Shown here piece after piece: positions 303 to 12,684 of a stretch of DNA of 12,684 bases. The notes beneath the pieces were generated by a model. It was not told the origin of the DNA, did no database searches, and saw only the letters and a list, made by a program, of their open reading frames with translations. The translations under genes were made by a program, and so were the position numbers. Origin of the DNA: Candidatus Mcinerneyibacteriota bacterium (GTDB lineage: Bacteria; Macinerneyibacteriota; Macinerneyibacteria; Macinerneyibacteriales; DSCS01); assembly GCA_016937175.1 (NCBI GenBank), contig JAFGWL010000053.1:1-12684 (forward strand), read 5' to 3'. Every line of letters starts with the position of its first letter. Positions within the stretch are counted from its first letter, which is position 1.

Positions 303-784
303 TGACATCTCTTGTCATTATTTCTGATACACATGATCGCGTATTACCGGATTTAGTGACGTCACACATCGAGAATGCAGATGTCATCCTCCATGCCGGG
401 GATTTCACCGGCATGGAGTACTATGAGATGCTTGAATCCTACGGGAAGCCTGTATATGGTGTATTGGGTAACATGGACAGGGGCCTCCTCGAATCCAAGC
501 TGCCGCTGAAACGTCTTCTGAAGATAGAAGAGGTCTCCATCGCCATGATCCACGGGTGGGGAGCCCCGGGCGGCCTGGAAGAGAGAGTCACAGGGGCCTT
601 TGAAAGGATGGATTGGGACGTTCTTGTCTTCGGGCATTCCCATAGCCCTGTGCTGAAAAAAGAAGGCAGAAAGTTTCTCCTCAATCCCGGTTCGCCCACA
701 GATAAGCGTTTCGCCCGGACTAATTCATTTATTGCCATGACCATTGATCAAGGGGATGTTAACGCGGAAATCATCTCTCTATGA
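302..784 (+). CDS. YfcE/MJ0936-type metallophosphoesterase
   Basis: A 160-residue calcineurin-like phosphoesterase of the compact single-domain YfcE class. All metal-binding motifs are visible: SDTHD at residues 8-12, HAGD at 31-34, GNMD at 56-59 (GNCD or GNHD in relatives), HG at 84-85 and GHSH at 111-114, followed by the family's NPGSP signature at 128-132. Members are Mn-dependent phosphodiesterases of soluble substrates; the natural substrate here is unknown. I chose ATG 302, which forms a TAATG junction with the upstream stop. A GTG at 290 would add four residues (MEKI) and overlap the upstream gene more, and neither start has a strong Shine-Dalgarno. The stop overlaps the next start as ATGA, so it belongs to the same operon as the cyclase. 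Confidence 0.9.
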   Translation: MTSLVIISDTHDRVLPDLVTSHIENADVILHAGDFTGMEYYEMLESYGKPVYGVLGNMDRGLLESKLPLKRLLKIEEVSIAMIHGWGAPGGLEERVTGAFERMDWDVLVFGHSHSPVLKKEGRKFLLNPGSPTDKRFARTNSFIAMTIDQGDVNAEIISL

Positions 785-2193
785 GTGAGACTGTTGCCAT
801 CTTTACCGAAAAAAAAGAACTTTATGCGATTCCTCTGATCGTCTCTAAACACGGATACCGGACCCATATTGTCAATACCCTGAAGGACTTCAAAGGAGCT
901 GCCCAGAGGGGAAAAGCTCAGGCGGTGATCCTGGACCTGGATACGGGGCTGGATGAGCATCTGGAACTTCTGGAGCGGATCATCCGTGAAAAAGACCCTG
1001 CCATATCGGTGATCGTCATCGCCAGAGAGACATCCCTGAAGGCTCTCCGGAGAGCCATGCAGCTCGGGATCCGTTTTTTCCTTACCCGTCCTTTTCCCGA
1101 AAGAGAGCTTATCGAAGCCCTGGAGAAGTCTTTTTTCCAATATCATCTGGAGCGGGAGAACGAGACGCTCCTGGAAAAGCTCAACAGGAAAGTCTATCAG
1201 CTCAACCTTCTCAATGAAACAGCTAAAATGCTTAATTCTTCTCTTAAATTGGATGATATCCTGTTGAAACTTATGCAGAACGCCGGAGAACTCGTCAATG
1301 CAGAAGCCTGGACCCTGTTCATGTATAATAAGGAGAAAAATGTCCTTGTCTTCAAATATGTAGTCGGAGAGGCGTCGGATAAACTCACAGGCGTGGAACT
1401 TCCCTGGGGGACGGGGATCGTGGGATGGGCTGCAGCCAACAGGCAGAGCATTCTGGTGAAGGATACAGGAAAGGATGAGCGGTTTTTCAAAAAGATCGAC
1501 AAAAAGACGAAATTCACGACTAAAAGTGTCATCTGTGTTCCCATCGTATACCGTGACGATCTGCTCGGAGTGGTGGAAGTGATAAACAAACAGGACGGCT
1601 CGGCCTTCGACGAAGAGGATCTGAATATCCTCGAGATCCTGGTCGAGGATGCGGCGATCTCCATCAAGAACACCTATCTTCTGGAGGAGACCTATACCCT
1701 GACTCTCCTGGACCATCTGACACGCCTTTATAACCTCCGGAAACTGAATGGCCTCTTTTTGGAGTTTCAGGAGGAGAATCGCCCCTTTTCCCTTCTTTTC
1801 ATGGACCTGGACAATTTCAAAAGCGTCAACGATAACTACGGACACCAATACGGAAGCACTACGCTTATCGAATTCGCTGAACTTCTGAAGAAGATCATCG
1901 ACAAAGGGGAGTACGGATTCCGTTACGGAGGGGACGAGTTTATCCTCCTTCTTCCCGAGAAGGGGATCGAAGAGGCGCGGGCTTACGCCGACAGGATCCA
2001 TGAATGCTTGCGTACCTATAAGTTTATCAATAAAGACGGGATCGCCGTGACGTTAAGCGTCAGCATCGGTATATCCCGCTTCCCTTCCCTTTCCACGTCG
2101 GGACAGGAGGTCCTCTTTCAGGCAGACCGCGCCATGTACAGTGTAAAACGCAAAGGGAAAAACGGGACGGCTCTTTTTCATAAAAACCTCTGA
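781..2193 (+). CDS. Diguanylate cyclase: degenerate receiver, GAF and GGDEF domains
   Basis: A 470-residue cytoplasmic signalling protein with no membrane segment. Residues 3-118 resemble a response-regulator receiver domain: Asp52 lies at the usual phospho-acceptor place, but the N-terminal acidic pair is replaced by Thr-Glu (9-10) and the conserved Lys before the late Pro is Arg (TRPF), so phosphorylation is doubtful. A short coiled-coil-like linker leads to a GAF sensor domain (about 145-300, with the typical WGTGIVGWAA segment). The C terminus is a GGDEF domain with MDLDNFK at 341-347 and an intact YGGDEF at 382-387, so synthesis of cyclic di-GMP from two GTP is expected. No RxxD product-inhibition site is seen at its usual distance before GGDEF. 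The ATG overlaps the phosphoesterase stop (ATGA). Confidence 0.93.
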   Translation: MSETVAIFTEKKELYAIPLIVSKHGYRTHIVNTLKDFKGAAQRGKAQAVILDLDTGLDEHLELLERIIREKDPAISVIVIARETSLKALRRAMQLGIRFFLTRPFPERELIEALEKSFFQYHLERENETLLEKLNRKVYQLNLLNETAKMLNSSLKLDDILLKLMQNAGELVNAEAWTLFMYNKEKNVLVFKYVVGEASDKLTGVELPWGTGIVGWAAANRQSILVKDTGKDERFFKKIDKKTKFTTKSVICVPIVYRDDLLGVVEVINKQDGSAFDEEDLNILEILVEDAAISIKNTYLLEETYTLTLLDHLTRLYNLRKLNGLFLEFQEENRPFSLLFMDLDNFKSVNDNYGHQYGSTTLIEFAELLKKIIDKGEYGFRYGGDEFILLLPEKGIEEARAYADRIHECLRTYKFINKDGIAVTLSVSIGISRFPSLSTSGQEVLFQADRAMYSVKRKGKNGTALFHKNL

Positions 2194-5091: not shown

Positions 5092-6162
5092 ATGCTCGAG
5101 GACAAAGCAAAAAAAAGCGGAGATTTCCGGTCCCTTAGAGAATATTATAATTATCTCACCACAGGAAAAAAAATAGAAGATTTCGGGTATAATCCCCTGC
5201 TGAGTCATGCCCATGAAAAAAACAGAAAGCCCATCGCCGCCTATAATACCTATCGGGAACAACTTTTAAGCGCGGTCCATCAGCGCCTTGTCGAGGAAGT
5301 CCGGAACAAGAGCCAGGTGGATCAGCTTTTCAACAAACAGTTTTTCCTCAACGGAGAGCCCCTGAGGTATATTTTGAAGGCCCCTCCGGAATCTACCGAG
5401 AGTTTTGTCCGGGGGCTGCGCTCCTTCTACGAAGGGGTCAATAAAGTCGCCCGGGAGAAGTATGGGCTTCAGCCCATCACCGTCAGAGGGGAAGAGAGCT
5501 GCTATCTCTGTAAACGCACAGGCCGTGTCATCGTGGTGGAGGAGTATAACGGAAAGGAGACCCTTGCTCTCTGTCCGCATCTCTATCACCGGGTCATGGA
5601 AGAGTCGGGGATCAACCGCCGCTTTCAGCATAAGGGCTTTGATGAATTTATCGTAGAAGAGAGCAATAAAGCCGCTGTCAGGGCCATGAGAAAATACGCC
5701 TCTTATTTCGAGACAGTCCTCCAGACCGGGGAGAGTCTGCTTCTCATCGGCCCGGTGGGTACCGGGAAGACACACCTGGGGATGGCAGTCCTCATGGAAT
5801 TGATCAGGCGGCCCCTATATCTCCGTTTTGAACTCTTAAGAAAACGCTATATCAGCCTTCCCCAGTTTCTCAATGAGATGAGGGCTTCCTTTCGGGAAGA
5901 GCGGCTGCATGAATTAGCCGAATGCGAATTCCTGGTGGTGGATGACCTGGGAATTGAGACCTTGGATGAATGGGGTCGGGACAAGGTCTTTACTCTGGTC
6001 AATACCCGTTATCAGGAGAAGCTTCCCACGATATTCATTTCGGACCTCTCCCCCCAGGAACTGGTCAATAAACTGGATGAAAGGATACTTTCCAGGCTTC
6101 ATGAGATGGCCCGGGGTGTCCGGATCGGCGGAGAAGACCGCCGGCGTAAAACGGACCGTTAA
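5092..6162 (+). CDS. DnaC/DnaI-like AAA+ ATPase with N-terminal zinc-binding motif (helicase loader-like)
   Basis: A 356-residue protein in two parts. Residues 1-135 are a charged region I cannot assign. Residues 137-166 carry CYLC (Cys137, Cys140) and CPHLYH (Cys161, His163, His166), a likely zinc site similar in placement to that of Bacillus DnaI. The C-terminal AAA+ domain has Walker A GPVGTGKT at 220-227, Walker B LVVDDLG with Asp284-Asp285, a sensor-1 strand reading IFISDLS, where Asn is more usual than Asp, and an ERILSRL arginine-finger segment. DnaC/DnaI proteins load the replicative helicase onto DNA, while related IstB proteins assist transposition. No transposase lies nearby, so a host loader role is favoured but not proven. 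ATG 5092 follows GGGGAGG by four bases. The stop overlaps the convergent UPF0175 stop. Confidence 0.83.
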   Translation: MLEDKAKKSGDFRSLREYYNYLTTGKKIEDFGYNPLLSHAHEKNRKPIAAYNTYREQLLSAVHQRLVEEVRNKSQVDQLFNKQFFLNGEPLRYILKAPPESTESFVRGLRSFYEGVNKVAREKYGLQPITVRGEESCYLCKRTGRVIVVEEYNGKETLALCPHLYHRVMEESGINRRFQHKGFDEFIVEESNKAAVRAMRKYASYFETVLQTGESLLLIGPVGTGKTHLGMAVLMELIRRPLYLRFELLRKRYISLPQFLNEMRASFREERLHELAECEFLVVDDLGIETLDEWGRDKVFTLVNTRYQEKLPTIFISDLSPQELVNKLDERILSRLHEMARGVRIGGEDRRRKTDR

Positions 6163-6368
6163 AGGAGTAAAGAGATCCCTTTCGCGACAGCCAGGTCCAC
6201 GAGGGCCTCTTCAGAGAGGCCTGCCAGTGGGGCGCACCGAGACAGGTCAGCCTTCCCGTTGCGTAAAAGATAGAGAGCCACCACGGTCTGGAGTTTGCCG
6301 GCATCATCTCCGGGCAGGTCGATCTTTTTAAGCAGATCCTCTTCGATAGTCAAAGTTACAGACGCCAT
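6159..6368 (-). CDS. UPF0175-family small protein (antitoxin-like), no toxin partner visible
   Basis: A 69-residue protein with the UPF0175 pattern: a short beta strand (ASVTLTI, 2-8), an acidic helix starting EEDLLKKI, a second helix VVALYLLRNGKADL (29-42), then the helix-turn-helix-like CAPLAGLSEEALVDLAVAKGI (45-65). UPF0175 members are small putative DNA-binding proteins often predicted to be antitoxins paired with PIN-like toxins. No toxin gene adjoins it: the convergent neighbour is the helicase-loader-like gene and the divergent side is a pilin operon. I chose ATG 6368-6366, which has AAAGGAGA seven bases upstream and a good promoter behind it. Longer frames reach back through the promoter and are unlikely. 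Confidence 0.8.
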   Translation of the reverse strand: MASVTLTIEEDLLKKIDLPGDDAGKLQTVVALYLLRNGKADLSRCAPLAGLSEEALVDLAVAKGISLLL

Positions 6369-6396
6369 GCGGGGTCTCCTTTCTTTTCTTCTTTCT

Positions 6397-6425
6397 AGTA
6401 TAAAAATAAAGGCGTGAAAAGTCAA
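6397..6425 (-). promoter_or_regulatory. Near-consensus sigma-70 promoter of the UPF0175 gene
   Basis: Read on the minus strand, TTGACT (6425-6420) and TATACT (6402-6397) are separated by exactly 17 bases, with five of six matches in each box. The predicted start lies near 6390, giving a leader of about 20 bases that contains the AAAGGAGA binding site. The promoter runs divergently from the sigma-54 promoter of the pilin operon. Confidence 0.8.
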
Positions 6426-6453
6426 CCTTGAGGGCAGATGTGCCCATTTATTG

Positions 6454-6473
6454 TGCACCAATACGAGGTGGCA
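6454..6473 (+). promoter_or_regulatory. Candidate enhancer-protein site upstream of the sigma-54 promoter
   Basis: TGCACC (6454-6459) is followed after seven bases by GGTGGCA (6467-6473), an imperfect dyad reminiscent of bacterial enhancer-binding-protein sites such as the NtrC type (TGCACC...GGTGCA), but with a longer spacer and one extra G. A related TGTGCCCA lies at 6439-6446. The position, roughly 100-120 bases before the expected transcription start, is where such upstream activating sites normally lie. No particular regulator can be named. Confidence 0.35.
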
Positions 6474-6549: not shown

Positions 6550-6567
6550 CTGGCACGTTAGTTGCTT
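6550..6567 (+). promoter_or_regulatory. Sigma-54 (RpoN) -24/-12 promoter of the pilin operon
   Basis: CTGGCACGTTAGTTGCTT matches the RpoN consensus (YTGGCACG-N4-TTGCW) at every defined base. The invariant GG (6552-6553) and GC (6564-6565) are ten bases apart, as required. Transcription should begin near 6576-6578, giving a leader of about 25 bases that ends in TAAGGAGG (6587-6594), six bases before the ATG at 6601. A sigma-54 promoter means an ATP-hydrolysing activator must switch the operon on. A weaker sigma-70 candidate (TTGCCT 6504-6509, TATATT 6526-6531, 16-base spacer) lies just upstream. Confidence 0.88.
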
Positions 6568-6600
6568 ATACAAAAGGGAAAGGGAATAAGGAGGTTTTGT

Positions 6601-8739
6601 ATGAAGATGAACAGACGCGGTATGGCTTTTCTCATGGCGCTCGGGATGGTTGCGATATCAGCTGTCATGATCGCCTCTCTGGCCATGCTGATCTCCTCAT
6701 ACGTTTCGACCACACGGTCCAGCAAGCAGAAAGAGTACTCGCTCCATTACGCCAATATGGCCCTGGACGAGATCAAATGGCATATTCAAAAGGGATACAA
6801 GCGGTGGCTCTATGAAGCGACCCATTCTCCTGGGTCGGACGGGATCTATGATTATGAGACCCGGGCCCACAGCAACGACGATTCGCTGCTCACCTCCAGT
6901 GTCAACCCCGACAGCGGTGTCGAAGGCGGGTATACCTATACCGCTGTCTCTGTGGAGGATATAGGGAATACCTACTGGATCAAGGTGGTGGACCATCTCA
7001 TCTGGCCCGACGGGAAGATCAGAGAAGACTATTACACCGTTGCCTCGAGTTCCGGGCTGAAGCCGTCAGGGCGTATCGAGGGCTGGATCAGGATCTCGGA
7101 CAAGGACGATTCCATCAGCCAGTATAATTTCGTCTATGACATCTTCTGCAAGGGAACGGATCTGCGCGGAGTGAAGCTCAATATGGAGGGAAACACGGTG
7201 GTCATCGAAGATGAACATCCACCCAAAGTCTCTTACATCCGGGCCACAGCCCGGGGGTCGGACTCCATATCCGTAAGCGAATTCAGTGTCGGGGTCTTCA
7301 AGGGACATATCAATGTGGGGAAAGGCTACAATGTCTTCGGGAAGCTCCACGCCTATGATTATATCGATTTTGTCTTTACTCCCCAGATGTACGAGATGGA
7401 TGTGGCCAAGATCTACGACCAGTTCAGCGTGAGCAATAAGGGAAGCGGCTTTTATCTTCACGGAAGCCTTCTGGCCAGCTCCATCGAAGCTCAGAAGACC
7501 TATCTGGAAAACCATAAGAACGACGTGATCAATCTTCAGGGGGATAATTCCGAGATCCGGACCTGGGGATTTCATCAGAATAAAAAAGCCTGGGCCTCTT
7601 TTGTGGGGGACAACGCCCATCCCGAGATCATTCCCCCCATCAGCCCCAAGACCAATGAGCACTTCTCCATGGTCCGTCGGGAAGCTCACGCCAACGGGAT
7701 CCATGTCCAGTCCGGGGATGTCCGGTTCGTCTACCTGGATCCGGGGTCATTGACGGTCAACGGAGACGGACAGGTGAAGATCACCCTCTCCAGCGGCGAG
7801 ATCTTTGTCAACGGGGTCTCCAAGGGAAGCGGATCCGGGGTCTCTGTGACAGTAAATATCGCCGATCTGCGTTCCCCTCTCATGTATGTGGACGGAAATC
7901 CCTCCACCGGGGCCTTTTATAGCGCTACTGTGGGAAGTTTTTCCGCTCTCAGTATCACTTCTGGGATCTATATGACCCGGGGGATCCGGGGCCTGGCCGG
8001 GGTCCTGGACGGACAGTTCTCCATCTTCTGTGATTATGATGTCGTCCTTTCGGGAGATACCCTCTATCAGGAGTATATCGGGTCCATCCCCTTCCTCTAT
8101 AAGGACCTTCTGGACAGCGGGAAGATCAAACAGCCCTACACCGGGTCCGGAGCCCAGCCCGATATGGACAAACCCAATATTCTTGGGGTCTTCACCAAGC
8201 ATGATATCATCATCCCGGCGGATATGTTCAACCAGCCCTACTCCATCCAGTCATGGGGGGCCTATTCCTGGAAGTTGAAATATGACAAATGGAATCCCTA
8301 TAAAGACGACTGGAGCGGGGAGCCGGCGCGCCGGGTTGACGGAGAAGGGACAGGCGTCCTCACCGGGGCTGTCTCCGGCGGTGGGGATATCTTCCCTGAT
8401 ATCTTCTCCATGGGCGTTTTCTATGCCAATCACCGTGTCTACGGCGAGATCCCCAGCGGAAGCTCCTCGGGAGAATACTACAACCGCGACAAATCCTACT
8501 ACTGCCAGCAGAAGGGGACCTGGTTCCTCTACGGCAGTGTGACCTGTGACGAGCAGGTCTTCGCCGTTCTGAGTAATGTGGGCCAGCAGACCTGGTGGGA
8601 GGGCTTCAAGTACCGAAGCTATAATTATGATCCAAATCTCTATACCTACGAGCCGCCTTTCAGCCTTCGGGTGGAAGTGCAGCCCATATGGAGCTGGCGC
8701 GTGACGACGACTTATCCTGCGGGCCTGGCGGAGTATTAA
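6601..8739 (+). CDS. PilX/GspK-like minor pseudopilin with large DUF4900-like body
   Basis: A 712-residue exported protein. The N terminus MKMNRRG, then MAFLMALGMVAISAVMIASL, is a class III prepilin signal: positive residues, Gly7 before the cut, then a hydrophobic helix. Position +5 is Met, not Glu, a trait of GspK/PilX subunits that sit at the filament tip. The long body looks like a beta-rich, possibly beta-helical domain. The segments GIYMTRGIRGLAGVLDG (from 455), PNILGVFTKHDIII (525-538) and GFKYRSYNYDPNL (668-680, followed by PPF) match the pattern I associate with DUF4900/PilX-like proteins. The last 100 residues are rich in Tyr and Trp and hold two Cys (YYCQQ, VTCDE) that may pair. 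ATG 6601 has TAAGGAGG six bases upstream; ATG 6607 is an alternative. First gene of the sigma-54 operon. Confidence 0.85.
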   Translation: MKMNRRGMAFLMALGMVAISAVMIASLAMLISSYVSTTRSSKQKEYSLHYANMALDEIKWHIQKGYKRWLYEATHSPGSDGIYDYETRAHSNDDSLLTSSVNPDSGVEGGYTYTAVSVEDIGNTYWIKVVDHLIWPDGKIREDYYTVASSSGLKPSGRIEGWIRISDKDDSISQYNFVYDIFCKGTDLRGVKLNMEGNTVVIEDEHPPKVSYIRATARGSDSISVSEFSVGVFKGHINVGKGYNVFGKLHAYDYIDFVFTPQMYEMDVAKIYDQFSVSNKGSGFYLHGSLLASSIEAQKTYLENHKNDVINLQGDNSEIRTWGFHQNKKAWASFVGDNAHPEIIPPISPKTNEHFSMVRREAHANGIHVQSGDVRFVYLDPGSLTVNGDGQVKITLSSGEIFVNGVSKGSGSGVSVTVNIADLRSPLMYVDGNPSTGAFYSATVGSFSALSITSGIYMTRGIRGLAGVLDGQFSIFCDYDVVLSGDTLYQEYIGSIPFLYKDLLDSGKIKQPYTGSGAQPDMDKPNILGVFTKHDIIIPADMFNQPYSIQSWGAYSWKLKYDKWNPYKDDWSGEPARRVDGEGTGVLTGAVSGGGDIFPDIFSMGVFYANHRVYGEIPSGSSSGEYYNRDKSYYCQQKGTWFLYGSVTCDEQVFAVLSNVGQQTWWEGFKYRSYNYDPNLYTYEPPFSLRVEVQPIWSWRVTTTYPAGLAEY

Positions 8740-8749
8740 GGGGGGATGT

Positions 8750-11700
8750 ATGAATAAGAAAGGGTTTACATTTATTGAATTGATTTTGGGCCTGAGCATC
8801 ATGGCCGTGGTCTTTATCTCGGTCATGGGTTATATCATGGTGGTAGGAAAGACAGAGCGGAAAGTCAAGCTCACCATCGACCGCTTCAACGTGGCCCAGA
8901 GTATTCTCACAGAGCTCAAGAACTGGGACTACCGCGGGACTAACAAAAAGAACCTCACAGCTCTTAAAAACTATCTGGAGAATACTTCGCCCGAATACCT
9001 TGAATATATGATGGGGGAGTCCCTCTATAATATCGAATCGGGAGGGGCAGGGACCTACTACCTGAAGACCGACGAGGGAACACTGCTGCGGGTAACGGTC
9101 ACCCTGGACTATATGCAGGAGGATACCACAGACCTGGACGGAGACGGGATCAAAGATGAGCTGGTCCGGAGCAACAGCGACCAGAATATCATGAGGATCA
9201 CTGTCTCGGTAGCGGAACATTTCAAAAATATCACAGAAGACCAGTATGTCTGGGCTACCGCCGTGGGCTATAAGGGTGTCAAGAGCAACAAACCAGTGGT
9301 GGATACTTACTTCAACGATGTCAGTGACGACGATGTGGTCATCACTTCTGAAGCCGCCGTCCTCCTGGCCATGGATTACCGCAAAAACGCTGACATCATC
9401 AACGGCCTTAACAACCTGGATAATGTCTCGCCATTCGATGAAGACGGCCTGGATAATGATGAAGACGGCAAAGCCGACTATTCCGGAGGGGATGCCCTCG
9501 AAGCCGATTCTGACGGGTTGGATAACGATTCCGACGGGATCATCGACGAAGCCTTCGAGCAGAACGACCTTGTCACCCATTACGAGGGGACAGTCTTCTC
9601 CGCCGACCCCTTCAAGCTGCTCCACGTCTACATCACCGATCCCCTCGGCAATACCGTAGACAGGGTGGGTAATTATACTCCCAACGATGAGTATACGGTC
9701 TATACTTGGGCGGTGACTGACAACGGCGGCGGAGCCTTTTCAGGAGGTTGGGACATCGACAGCGACACGACCAACGGAAAGTACAAAGTGGAAGTCGAGG
9801 CCAGGACCAACCCCGACCTGGATACGGGTGTCTCCCTGGATCCCCGGAGCTATGAGTTCATCGTGGATACCCAGCCCCCGGCCGTGACAGAGATAAGCCC
9901 GGCCCCCGGGACCTTTGTGGCCTCTACCAATGTGACCCTGGCGGTGACAGCCAAGGATAACCCGCCTGATGGGATCACGGTCCCCACCAGCGGCCTGGAC
10001 CGCGTCTATGTCATGGAGAAGAAGGAGTATGAAGTCTCGGGAGAGATGAAATATTCCTGGGAGCTGGTGAAACACCAGCTCATCGACAAGGAGACTTCCG
10101 ATGTCTTCTCCACCATGAACGTAGGGGTGAACCTGGAAGCCGTGGCTGAAGGATATCACTATTACCGGGTCGTGGTCAAAGACCGGGCTGGAAATGTGAA
10201 TTATAAGGAGACGGAAGTCTACGTCACCGAAGAGCCCGACATCAAGCCGCCCCGGATCTATCCTCTTATCCCCTATGACCCGCTCACTACAGCGGTCACG
10301 GGAAGCCCCACGCCTCAGATCGCTGCGCGGATCGTCGACTCGACCATCATCAGCGGCATTGAGACAGAGAGTGGCGTGGATGTGGACCCGGTCAACGGGC
10401 TGCCCCGGGTAGTCTATAAGATCCTGGAGTCCGGTGACCCGGAGACCATTGACTGGAACACTCTGGACGGGTTTACTGATATTACAGCCCAGGTGGCTTA
10501 TATCAAACATAATGTCAACAATGTGACGCTCCAGTTTACAACGGGAGCGACCCTGGTCGAAGGAGATACGGTCCTTGTGGGGATCTATGCCCAGGACAAG
10601 GCTCAGAATTACTCTACCCGAGTATGGAAGTTCACCTATTCCACCGGTGCTGCCTCCAACAATCCCTTTATCGAGGATGTGACGGTTCAGCAGCTGGCCA
10701 ACCATCCCAACCTCTCGCCCCCGTATCTTTATAATCCCGACTGGGTGTCCGGAGCCCCGGCTCAGACCAATCGGAACTTCTTTATAGGATGGCACTCGAG
10801 CGATGCTGACGGCATCGCCATCACACGGCTTCATTATACAGCCGTGGGAGATACCCTGATCACCTATGAGAAGAGTTCTTCGATCCTGGAGCTGCCCATC
10901 GCTGACAGTTTCGGCTATGAACTGAGTGACCTGAACATCACCCAACCAGGGACCTTCTACTACTACATCGAAGTGGTGGACGGAAGCGGGAATACCTCTT
11001 ACTATTACAGGACCGATGCAGCGTCAGCCCCCGAGGCGCACCAGACGGCGCCCACGGATATCATGAGCCAATGGGTCCCGGTGAAGGTGGAGCAGGTCCG
11101 TGTCCTTGTCTTTGACATGGATACGGATGAGACAGGGACGACGGATAATGTCAGCCCCTATTATACGCTTCCTGACGGCCCGCTTTACTGGAACGATGAG
11201 GACTGTACCATCATCGAGACAGCCCAGAATACAGATGTGGCTACTCTCATGGGCTATATGGATCCCGACGGGAACGGATTGTTCGATGACTTTGACCTGG
11301 TGATCTTTTTCACCGGTTCCATGGCTTCGCCTCCGGGATTCAGCGACGGCTTCATCCAGCTTCTCCACTCCTGGATGACAGCGCCTTATGCCGATTTCAG
11401 GACCTTCTACTCCTCTCTCCAGGAGGGGATCAACGGAGACCTGGATTTTTTCCATTACACAGGGGATAAGACGGTCACCCTGAGCCAGTACAGCAGCGTC
11501 AAGCCGCCCCGTGTAGCCTTTATCGGGAAGCGCTTTTTCCATAACTTCGATTCCACCAGTGTCTATACCACAGAACTGCGCCAGCTCTTTATCCGGCGCT
11601 GGCTGGGTTTTGACACGGGAGGGAAGCAGGATTATACCGATTTCACCTCTTACCCCTATGTGGTCTCCAATCTTTTGAACACAGCCCTCTGGGCCACGGG

Positions 11701-12235
11701 GACCACGCTGATGTTCAACGATGTCGTCTTCGGAGAGACGGTGGGGATCATGAAAAAGGATGCAGACGGAAACGACCTCTCCCGGGCCACCGGGGCCAAT
11801 TATCTCCGCCACTATCTCCTCAACCCCGTGGAGGGAGATTACTATGACGGATATGCCAATCAGGCCGACCCTGTTCCCCAGCGCTGGAACCTGGCCGGAG
11901 AGGTGCTCAGTGCCGAAGAGAAACTCGCCGGGAAGATGCTTTTGTCTAACCCGGGGATCCATACTACCGATTACAACGGCCTGGAGGGTTATATCATGGC
12001 GACAAAGCAGTGTCTGGTCTTCGGAGCCGATCCGGACAATATGGCCTATACCGCCGGAGTCTGGGCCTATAAAGGAGTAGGGTCCGGCTCTGACTGGGAT
12101 TTCGCCATTCATGACGGCGCTCCCAATGTTGTGGACGCGAAGCTTCTTTTCCTGGGATTCGGGATCGAAGCGATCTCTACGGAGAACTGGCGGTATGAAG
12201 CGATGAAGAGCCTGGTTCGCTTCCTCTACTACTGA
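8750..12235 (+). CDS. Giant PilV/GspI-like prepilin with calcium loops, Ig-like modules and C-terminal alpha/beta domain
   Basis: A 1161-residue protein with a textbook prepilin start: MNKKG then FTFIELILGLSIMAVV, so cleavage after Gly5 and Glu at +5. The following helix (FNVAQSILTELKNW) resembles GspI/PilV minor pilins, which are normally only about 120-200 residues. Acidic loops of the DxDxDG or dockerin/thrombospondin-3 type lie at 128-137, 230-243, 253-267 and 838-849, suggesting calcium binding. Residues about 270-770 look like several Ig-like modules (starts near 374, 497 and 637, with VKDRAGN and AQDKAQN strand ends). Residues about 783-1161 (RVLVFDMD, then FDLVIFFTG) resemble the flavodoxin/GATase1-like domains appended to some secreted enzymes; no catalytic residues are recognised. 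A GGGGGG binding site follows the previous stop by one base. Confidence 0.85.
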   Translation: MNKKGFTFIELILGLSIMAVVFISVMGYIMVVGKTERKVKLTIDRFNVAQSILTELKNWDYRGTNKKNLTALKNYLENTSPEYLEYMMGESLYNIESGGAGTYYLKTDEGTLLRVTVTLDYMQEDTTDLDGDGIKDELVRSNSDQNIMRITVSVAEHFKNITEDQYVWATAVGYKGVKSNKPVVDTYFNDVSDDDVVITSEAAVLLAMDYRKNADIINGLNNLDNVSPFDEDGLDNDEDGKADYSGGDALEADSDGLDNDSDGIIDEAFEQNDLVTHYEGTVFSADPFKLLHVYITDPLGNTVDRVGNYTPNDEYTVYTWAVTDNGGGAFSGGWDIDSDTTNGKYKVEVEARTNPDLDTGVSLDPRSYEFIVDTQPPAVTEISPAPGTFVASTNVTLAVTAKDNPPDGITVPTSGLDRVYVMEKKEYEVSGEMKYSWELVKHQLIDKETSDVFSTMNVGVNLEAVAEGYHYYRVVVKDRAGNVNYKETEVYVTEEPDIKPPRIYPLIPYDPLTTAVTGSPTPQIAARIVDSTIISGIETESGVDVDPVNGLPRVVYKILESGDPETIDWNTLDGFTDITAQVAYIKHNVNNVTLQFTTGATLVEGDTVLVGIYAQDKAQNYSTRVWKFTYSTGAASNNPFIEDVTVQQLANHPNLSPPYLYNPDWVSGAPAQTNRNFFIGWHSSDADGIAITRLHYTAVGDTLITYEKSSSILELPIADSFGYELSDLNITQPGTFYYYIEVVDGSGNTSYYYRTDAASAPEAHQTAPTDIMSQWVPVKVEQVRVLVFDMDTDETGTTDNVSPYYTLPDGPLYWNDEDCTIIETAQNTDVATLMGYMDPDGNGLFDDFDLVIFFTGSMASPPGFSDGFIQLLHSWMTAPYADFRTFYSSLQEGINGDLDFFHYTGDKTVTLSQYSSVKPPRVAFIGKRFFHNFDSTSVYTTELRQLFIRRWLGFDTGGKQDYTDFTSYPYVVSNLLNTALWATGTTLMFNDVVFGETVGIMKKDADGNDLSRATGANYLRHYLLNPVEGDYYDGYANQADPVPQRWNLAGEVLSAEEKLAGKMLLSNPGIHTTDYNGLEGYIMATKQCLVFGADPDNMAYTAGVWAYKGVGSGSDWDFAIHDGAPNVVDAKLLFLGFGIEAISTENWRYEAMKSLVRFLYY

Positions 12236-12251
12236 GAGAGGAGGAGGAAAA

Positions 12252-12684
12252 ATGAATAAAAAAGGACTGACGCTCATTGAACTCTTTATCACCATCGCTA
12301 TTTTGGGGCTTATCTCCATTGCGGTGTATAACCTGTTCAATGTCTTCATCAAACAGAGCCTGGGGATCCAGGAAAGGATCGTAACGGAACAGCGTTTTGA
12401 TATCGGATTCCACACCATGCTCAATGACTTCATGTCCATGAGCGTGGTCATGACGGGGATGCGAGATGTCGTCCCCGTCAAGACCTACAACCCAGACGGC
12501 TCTCTTCTCAAAGAGACCAACCAGACCCTGCTCTTTTCCGATTCCGTGGATTACCAGGGGACGACCTACTCGTTTCACACTGCCGACGGGACCTTCCTGC
12601 TCGATGACGGGTCGACGACTCTTCCTATCTTTGATGAATCCATCATCGACACCCTCTACTTTAACAGTGATAACGAGATCCCCC
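12252..12684 (+). CDS. PilW/GspJ-like minor prepilin, 3' end outside window
   Basis: The first 144 codons are visible. MNKKG followed by LTLIELFITIAILGLISIAV is a class III prepilin signal with cleavage after Gly5 and Glu at +5. The helix continues through VYNLFNVFIKQSL and a Gln-rich stretch to HTMLNDFMSMS, an arrangement like the N terminus of GspJ/PilW minor pilins. The globular part beyond residue 70 begins as beta strands (LLFSDSV, TYSFHTADGTFLL). The ATG has AGGAGG (12242-12247) four bases upstream and lies 16 bases after the previous stop, so it is the third gene of the operon. Assignment to the W/J class rests on the N-terminal part only; a generic prepilin is certain, the class less so. 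Confidence 0.83.
   Translation, partial: MNKKGLTLIELFITIAILGLISIAVYNLFNVFIKQSLGIQERIVTEQRFDIGFHTMLNDFMSMSVVMTGMRDVVPVKTYNPDGSLLKETNQTLLFSDSVDYQGTTYSFHTADGTFLLDDGSTTLPIFDESIIDTLYFNSDNEIP

Follow-up and report, generated by a model that had tools for sequence, protein, structure and literature searches.

The locus raises the question of which filament, and which part of it, is served by three adjacent prepilin genes that lie behind a sigma-54 promoter with no pilus machinery in view around them. The window, meaning the whole stretch of DNA analysed, is one entire contig of 12,684 bp from a 1.88 Mb genome that is 98.7% complete (G000), and it was compared with genomes including a congener (G001) and a member of another family in the same order (G002). 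The whole analysis is sequence-based, using in part metagenome-assembled genomes.

An earlier note on this DNA had read the genes as encoding minor prepilins of the K, I and J types in turn, which is borne out by class III prepilin signals in all three products (K RRG/MAFLMALGM, I KKG/FTFIELILG and J KKG/LTLIELFIT) and by weak N-terminal profile matches in the claimed roles; the starts, the order and the exceptional sizes of K and I, 712 and 1161 aa, are confirmed as well (Table 1). The J N terminus matches the profiles of GspJ (E=1.7e-4) and N_methyl (E=8e-5), that of I weakly matches ComGE (E=0.0045) and GspI (E=0.11), and that of K weakly matches GspK (E=0.017), with the GspK, GspI and GspJ matches extending little past the N-terminal helix of each protein. 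The N_methyl profile is over or near its cut-off for I and J, and K was assigned as a prepilin by its position, its hydrophobic stretch and its GspK N-terminal match. The Glu5 pattern is the same in the three genomes, with FTFIE or FTYIE in I, (L/V)TLIE or FTLTE in J, and MAFLM, IAFLM or IALFL, none containing Glu5, in K. The genes are separated by gaps of 10 bp (K to I) and 16 bp (I to J), and no separate H/FimU gene is found within the operon. A mobile-element origin was considered and rejected, the GC and GC3 values of K-I-J being close to those of the neighbouring genes with no mobile element seen alongside. A small UPF0175-like ORF (weak match, E=0.022) lies between a DnaC-like gene and K.

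Table 1. Features of the window referred to in the text; a slash stands within each prepilin signal.
Feature	Position	Strand	Remarks
Response regulator-GAF-GGDEF diguanylate cyclase	781-2193		
UPF0175-like ORF	6159-6461	-	small
Sigma-54 promoter, TGGCAC-N5-TTGCT	6551-6566	+	perfect consensus; 1 of 3 in genome
Ribosome-binding site of K, GGAGG	6590-6594	+	from sequence
K-type minor prepilin	6601-8739	+	712 aa; signal MKMNRRG/; without Glu5; enlarged head
I-type minor prepilin	8750-12235	+	1161 aa; signal MNKKG/FTFIE; Glu5 present
Acidic stretch of I	9434-9562	+	DEDGLDNDEDGK...DSDGLDNDSDGIIDEAFEQ; kept in both relatives
Middle of I, Ig/PKD-like beta domains	9860-11065 (approximate)	+	weak Big_13, PKD and MG2 matches
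C-terminal module of I	11072-12232	+	387 residues; conserved 45-67%; no known family
J-type minor prepilin, 5' part	12252-12684	+	144 of ~347 aa; signal MNKKG/LTLIE; Glu5 present

Conserved synteny of the three genes was looked for and found. In a first search of 60 genomes besides the window's own, full relatives of K and I occurred in two, G001 (DSCS01000025.1, 'Bacillota bacterium SpSt-1200') and G002, with K, I and J of 692, 1160 and 347 aa in the former and 703, 1229 and 340 aa in the latter. Identity to the window proteins is 71% and 48% for K and 68% and 46% for I, respectively. The upstream genes are those of the window in G001 and differ in G002, so that the order K-I-J is unchanged while its surroundings change, and all three roles are kept together in one operon across two families. 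The rest of the third gene is not recoverable from the window, since the contig ends inside J with the reading frame open at 144 aa; it is supplied by the two relatives, where J is complete at about 345 residues, the second half of which contains an acidic stretch (DDDGDG...DEDGDGLDGEEP).

The sequence ahead of K, TGGCACGTTAGTTGCT, fits the -24/-12 consensus and starts 50 bp upstream of the K start codon. The corresponding box in G002 is also perfect (TGGCACATTCTTTGCT, 49 bp upstream), and that in G001 is one base off (TGGCACGGATAATGCT, ATGC for TTGC, 59 bp upstream). Genome-wide in G000, TGGCAC-N5-TTGCW occurs at 3 sites against about 0.9 expected, with 0 for the reversed-pattern control, and the three perfect boxes precede K-I-J, the major prepilin gene followed by pilD (contig C10), and an hsp20 operon. 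A sigma-54 box stands ahead of the pilin in two genomes; that of G001 (TGGCACGGGGCATGCT) shows the same ATGC departure from TTGC as the G001 K-I-J box, and both begin TGGCACGG. Each of the three genomes carries a single copy of rpoN and several NtrC-type activators. The presence of rpoN, of these activators and of a box of the same kind ahead of the major pilin, together with the retention of the K box in two relatives, strengthens the case for sigma-54 control. As K-I-J and the major pilin both carry the box, tip and filament are probably induced at the same time. In P. aeruginosa, by contrast, PilSR controls the major pilin and FimS-AlgR the minor-pilin operon (PMC5979040).

Two further observations concern these promoters. 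The hsp20-like genes (L075 1501-2415, on contig C49 of G000, L070 and L072) keep a perfect sigma-54 box in 3 genomes and are probably a small-heat-shock operon under RpoN. In G001, TAACTGGTTG lies 51 bp before the K-I-J box and 41 bp before the pilin box (L012 ~9891; L068 ~9981), where it is possibly an activator site; as a site common to the two operons it is no more than a lead, not being shared in G000 and near chance.

The description of the trio as detached from any pilus machinery holds for the window and fails for the genome, which encodes PilB, PilT, PilC, PilD and PilMNOPQ. A histidine kinase and an NtrC-type regulator are followed on contig C71 by pilM, pilN, pilO, a pilP-like gene and pilQ, with a further NtrC-type regulator upstream, and G002 has the same arrangement. 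Contig C60 encodes PilB (over its curated cut-off), PilT and the beginning of PilC, and PilD adjoins the major pilin on C10; the prepilin peptidase and assembly ATPase on which the earlier note had let its reading hinge are therefore both present, along with PilC. PilQ and the lpt-like genes, identified by eye, suggest a cell with two membranes. PilB of G000 carries an MshE-type c-di-GMP domain and the window encodes a diguanylate cyclase, and c-di-GMP may therefore act on the pilus. An 871-aa protein with a Por secretion tail (PF18962) is encoded between the two NtrC-type regulators just upstream of pilMNOPQ (L102 6162-8777), and a protein of similar size occupies the same place in G002. PilY1 (PF05567) gave no match at E<=1 in G000, G001 or G002, a moderate negative as the control genomes held no strong PilY1 carrier. 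The genome also encodes parts of a second, T2SS-like system, with an ATPase and a platform protein on C6 and a PilM-like protein and short secretin on C35. An ordinary-sized I-J-K set (about 160, 160 and 487 aa) lies on C62, with no sigma-54 box seen ahead of it, and may go with this second system.

From these data, the K-I-J genes are likely to be one operon, dependent on sigma-54, that encodes the minor-pilin tip complex of a type IVa pilus. A rival reading is the reverse allocation, in which the trio would be the pseudopilus tip of the T2SS-like system, pushing proteins out, with the C62 set serving the type IVa pilus. A second ATPase and platform pair, a short secretin and a PilM-like protein do exist, and the best NCBIfam names of the trio include GspK, GspI and GspJ; however, names that rest on N-terminal matches do not separate T2SS from type IV pili. 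The sigma-54 box of the trio, including the off-consensus variant in G001, matches that of the major pilin, and no such box was found ahead of the C62 set, which ties the trio to the type IVa pilus and not to the T2SS-like system. We consider the reverse allocation unlikely, and the T2SS-like system probably uses the ordinary set. It is very improbable that the box itself is a chance match in an operon that is constitutive or otherwise controlled: about 0.9 perfect matches are expected by chance in the genome, yet in three genomes the box lies about 50-59 bp upstream of the K start codon, and in two it also stands ahead of the pilin.

The large heads bear on another reading, according to which K, I and J are system-specific accessory pilins, acting as filament adhesins or surface proteins and not as a primer, while the C62 set primes both systems. 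The minor sets of T2SS and type IV pili are interchangeable for piliation (PMC10191384), and an essential primer would hardly be expected to carry heads as large as those of K and I. Against this, the lack of Glu5 in K fits a cap and not a body subunit, and two families keep all three roles side by side, with a related form in another lineage, making it improbable that the trio is merely accessory.

When the head of K and the C-terminal module of I were searched against Pfam, NCBIfam and PDB, nothing was found past the prepilin N terminus, and the 387-residue module of I has no Pfam or PDB match; the impression of an amidotransferase-like Rossmann domain at the I C terminus found no support. 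K has a conserved C-terminal block (KGTWFLYGS...YRSYNYDPNLYTYEPPF...PIWSWR). The acidic stretch of I is possibly calcium-binding, and the weak Big_13, PKD and MG2 matches in the middle of I recur in its orthologues. AlphaFold models built on three-sequence alignments reached mean pLDDT values of only 29 for K and 37 for I, with a long N-terminal helix in each, and the low-confidence model of I is mostly beta in the middle part. The features of a modular pilin are thus found in I: a pilin N terminus, great length, weak Ig/PKD-like matches and a conserved 387-aa C-terminal module.

When a profile of K was run against 386 genomes, full-length relatives turned up only within the window's own order, with remote ones elsewhere, the best being in G228 and G088 of a distant lineage, where the order is I-J-K with I of 1005 and 1011 aa, J of 302 and 304 aa and K of 474 and 484 aa. 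Profile comparison of the trio with these proteins, on two or three sequences per side, gave E-values of 4.5e-18 for K-K over the whole length, 7.5e-10 for J-J and 2.5e-8 for I-I, versus 1e-3 and 0.16 for wrong-role pairs; the I-I and J-J scores across lineages, though not K-K, are inflated partly by acidic-loop composition. The two operons share with the trio an outsized I and acidic loops, and their K, their J and the N-terminal part of their I are homologous to its own; they differ in gene order, the shorter K and the different C-terminal modules on I. A combined profile searched against 385 genomes revealed further K-like N termini, many clustered with other prepilins; the K-type members of these clusters lack Glu5 and some cluster members are very large. 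In one distant genome a probable sensor protein and response regulator precede a prepilin cluster with a 785-aa K-type protein and a 1660-aa prepilin (L173 3735-11727), and in other lineages outsized prepilins adjoin or lie near K-type genes (L171 3538-6339, 933 aa; L157 8107-10527, 806 aa; L123 456-2840, 794 aa). By sequence, outsized members recur in minor-pilin clusters, in agreement with a published census of modular pilins that counted more than 1,200 proteins in 264 architectures (PMC8179133).

Tip-located minor-pilin complexes with a cap subunit lacking Glu5 prime type 4 filaments (PMC10191384), and the trio fits this scheme in its signals, its Glu5 pattern, the order of its genes and the promoter type that connects it with the major pilin. 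We infer a tip role more firmly than the earlier note could, because the trio and the major pilin share a promoter type. An NtrC-type activator, probably one beside pilM, would turn on major pilin and tip together, PilD would cut the leaders of K, I and J, and K would cap an I-J-K trimer that primes assembly and exits via PilQ at the filament tip; both the trimer and the functions of the heads are predictions. As no PilY1 was found, the large heads of I and K may take its place, forming an adhesive or surface-contacting end. The passage of subunits of 700-1160 residues through PilQ would be a problem for a tip complex of this kind. In Myxococcus, pili no longer formed when PilW3 or PilY1 carried an sfGFP fusion, the block possibly lying at PilQ (PMC7541494). 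We put forward only tentatively the fuller proposal that PilY1 is missing in this lineage and that the giant K and I heads combine primer and adhesive end under the sigma-54 switch of the pilin and must pass PilQ.

Among known systems, PilHIJK or FimU-PilVWX with PilY1 in the type IVa pili of Pseudomonas, Neisseria and Myxococcus likewise have a single operon for the I, J and K prepilins, with a K lacking Glu5, and type IVa machinery is present here too; however, in this case K and I are several times larger, the operon has no H gene and the three genomes have no PilY1 match. The GspI-GspJ-GspK tip of the T2SS pseudopilus is similar in its role-matched N termini and K without Glu5, whereas here I is the largest subunit and the promoter links the trio to a type IVa pilin, not to secretion genes. 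The modular pilins PilB and PilC of S. sanguinis also join a pilin N terminus to large extra modules, with a tip location proposed (PMC8179133), but the extra modules here match no vWA or lectin family and two of the three subunits are greatly enlarged, I to 1161 aa.

Oversized modular minor pilins are already known, and the trio would be a version of unusual size of a known kind of pilus tip. It presents a probable tip complex in which two of three subunits have grown large and multidomain, while tip and filament seem to have a promoter type in common. The trio lends itself to testing how bulky tip proteins exit via the secretin and whether, in bacteria without PilY1, modular minor pilins stand in for it, with the more ordinary I-J-K set also encoded by this genome as a built-in comparison.
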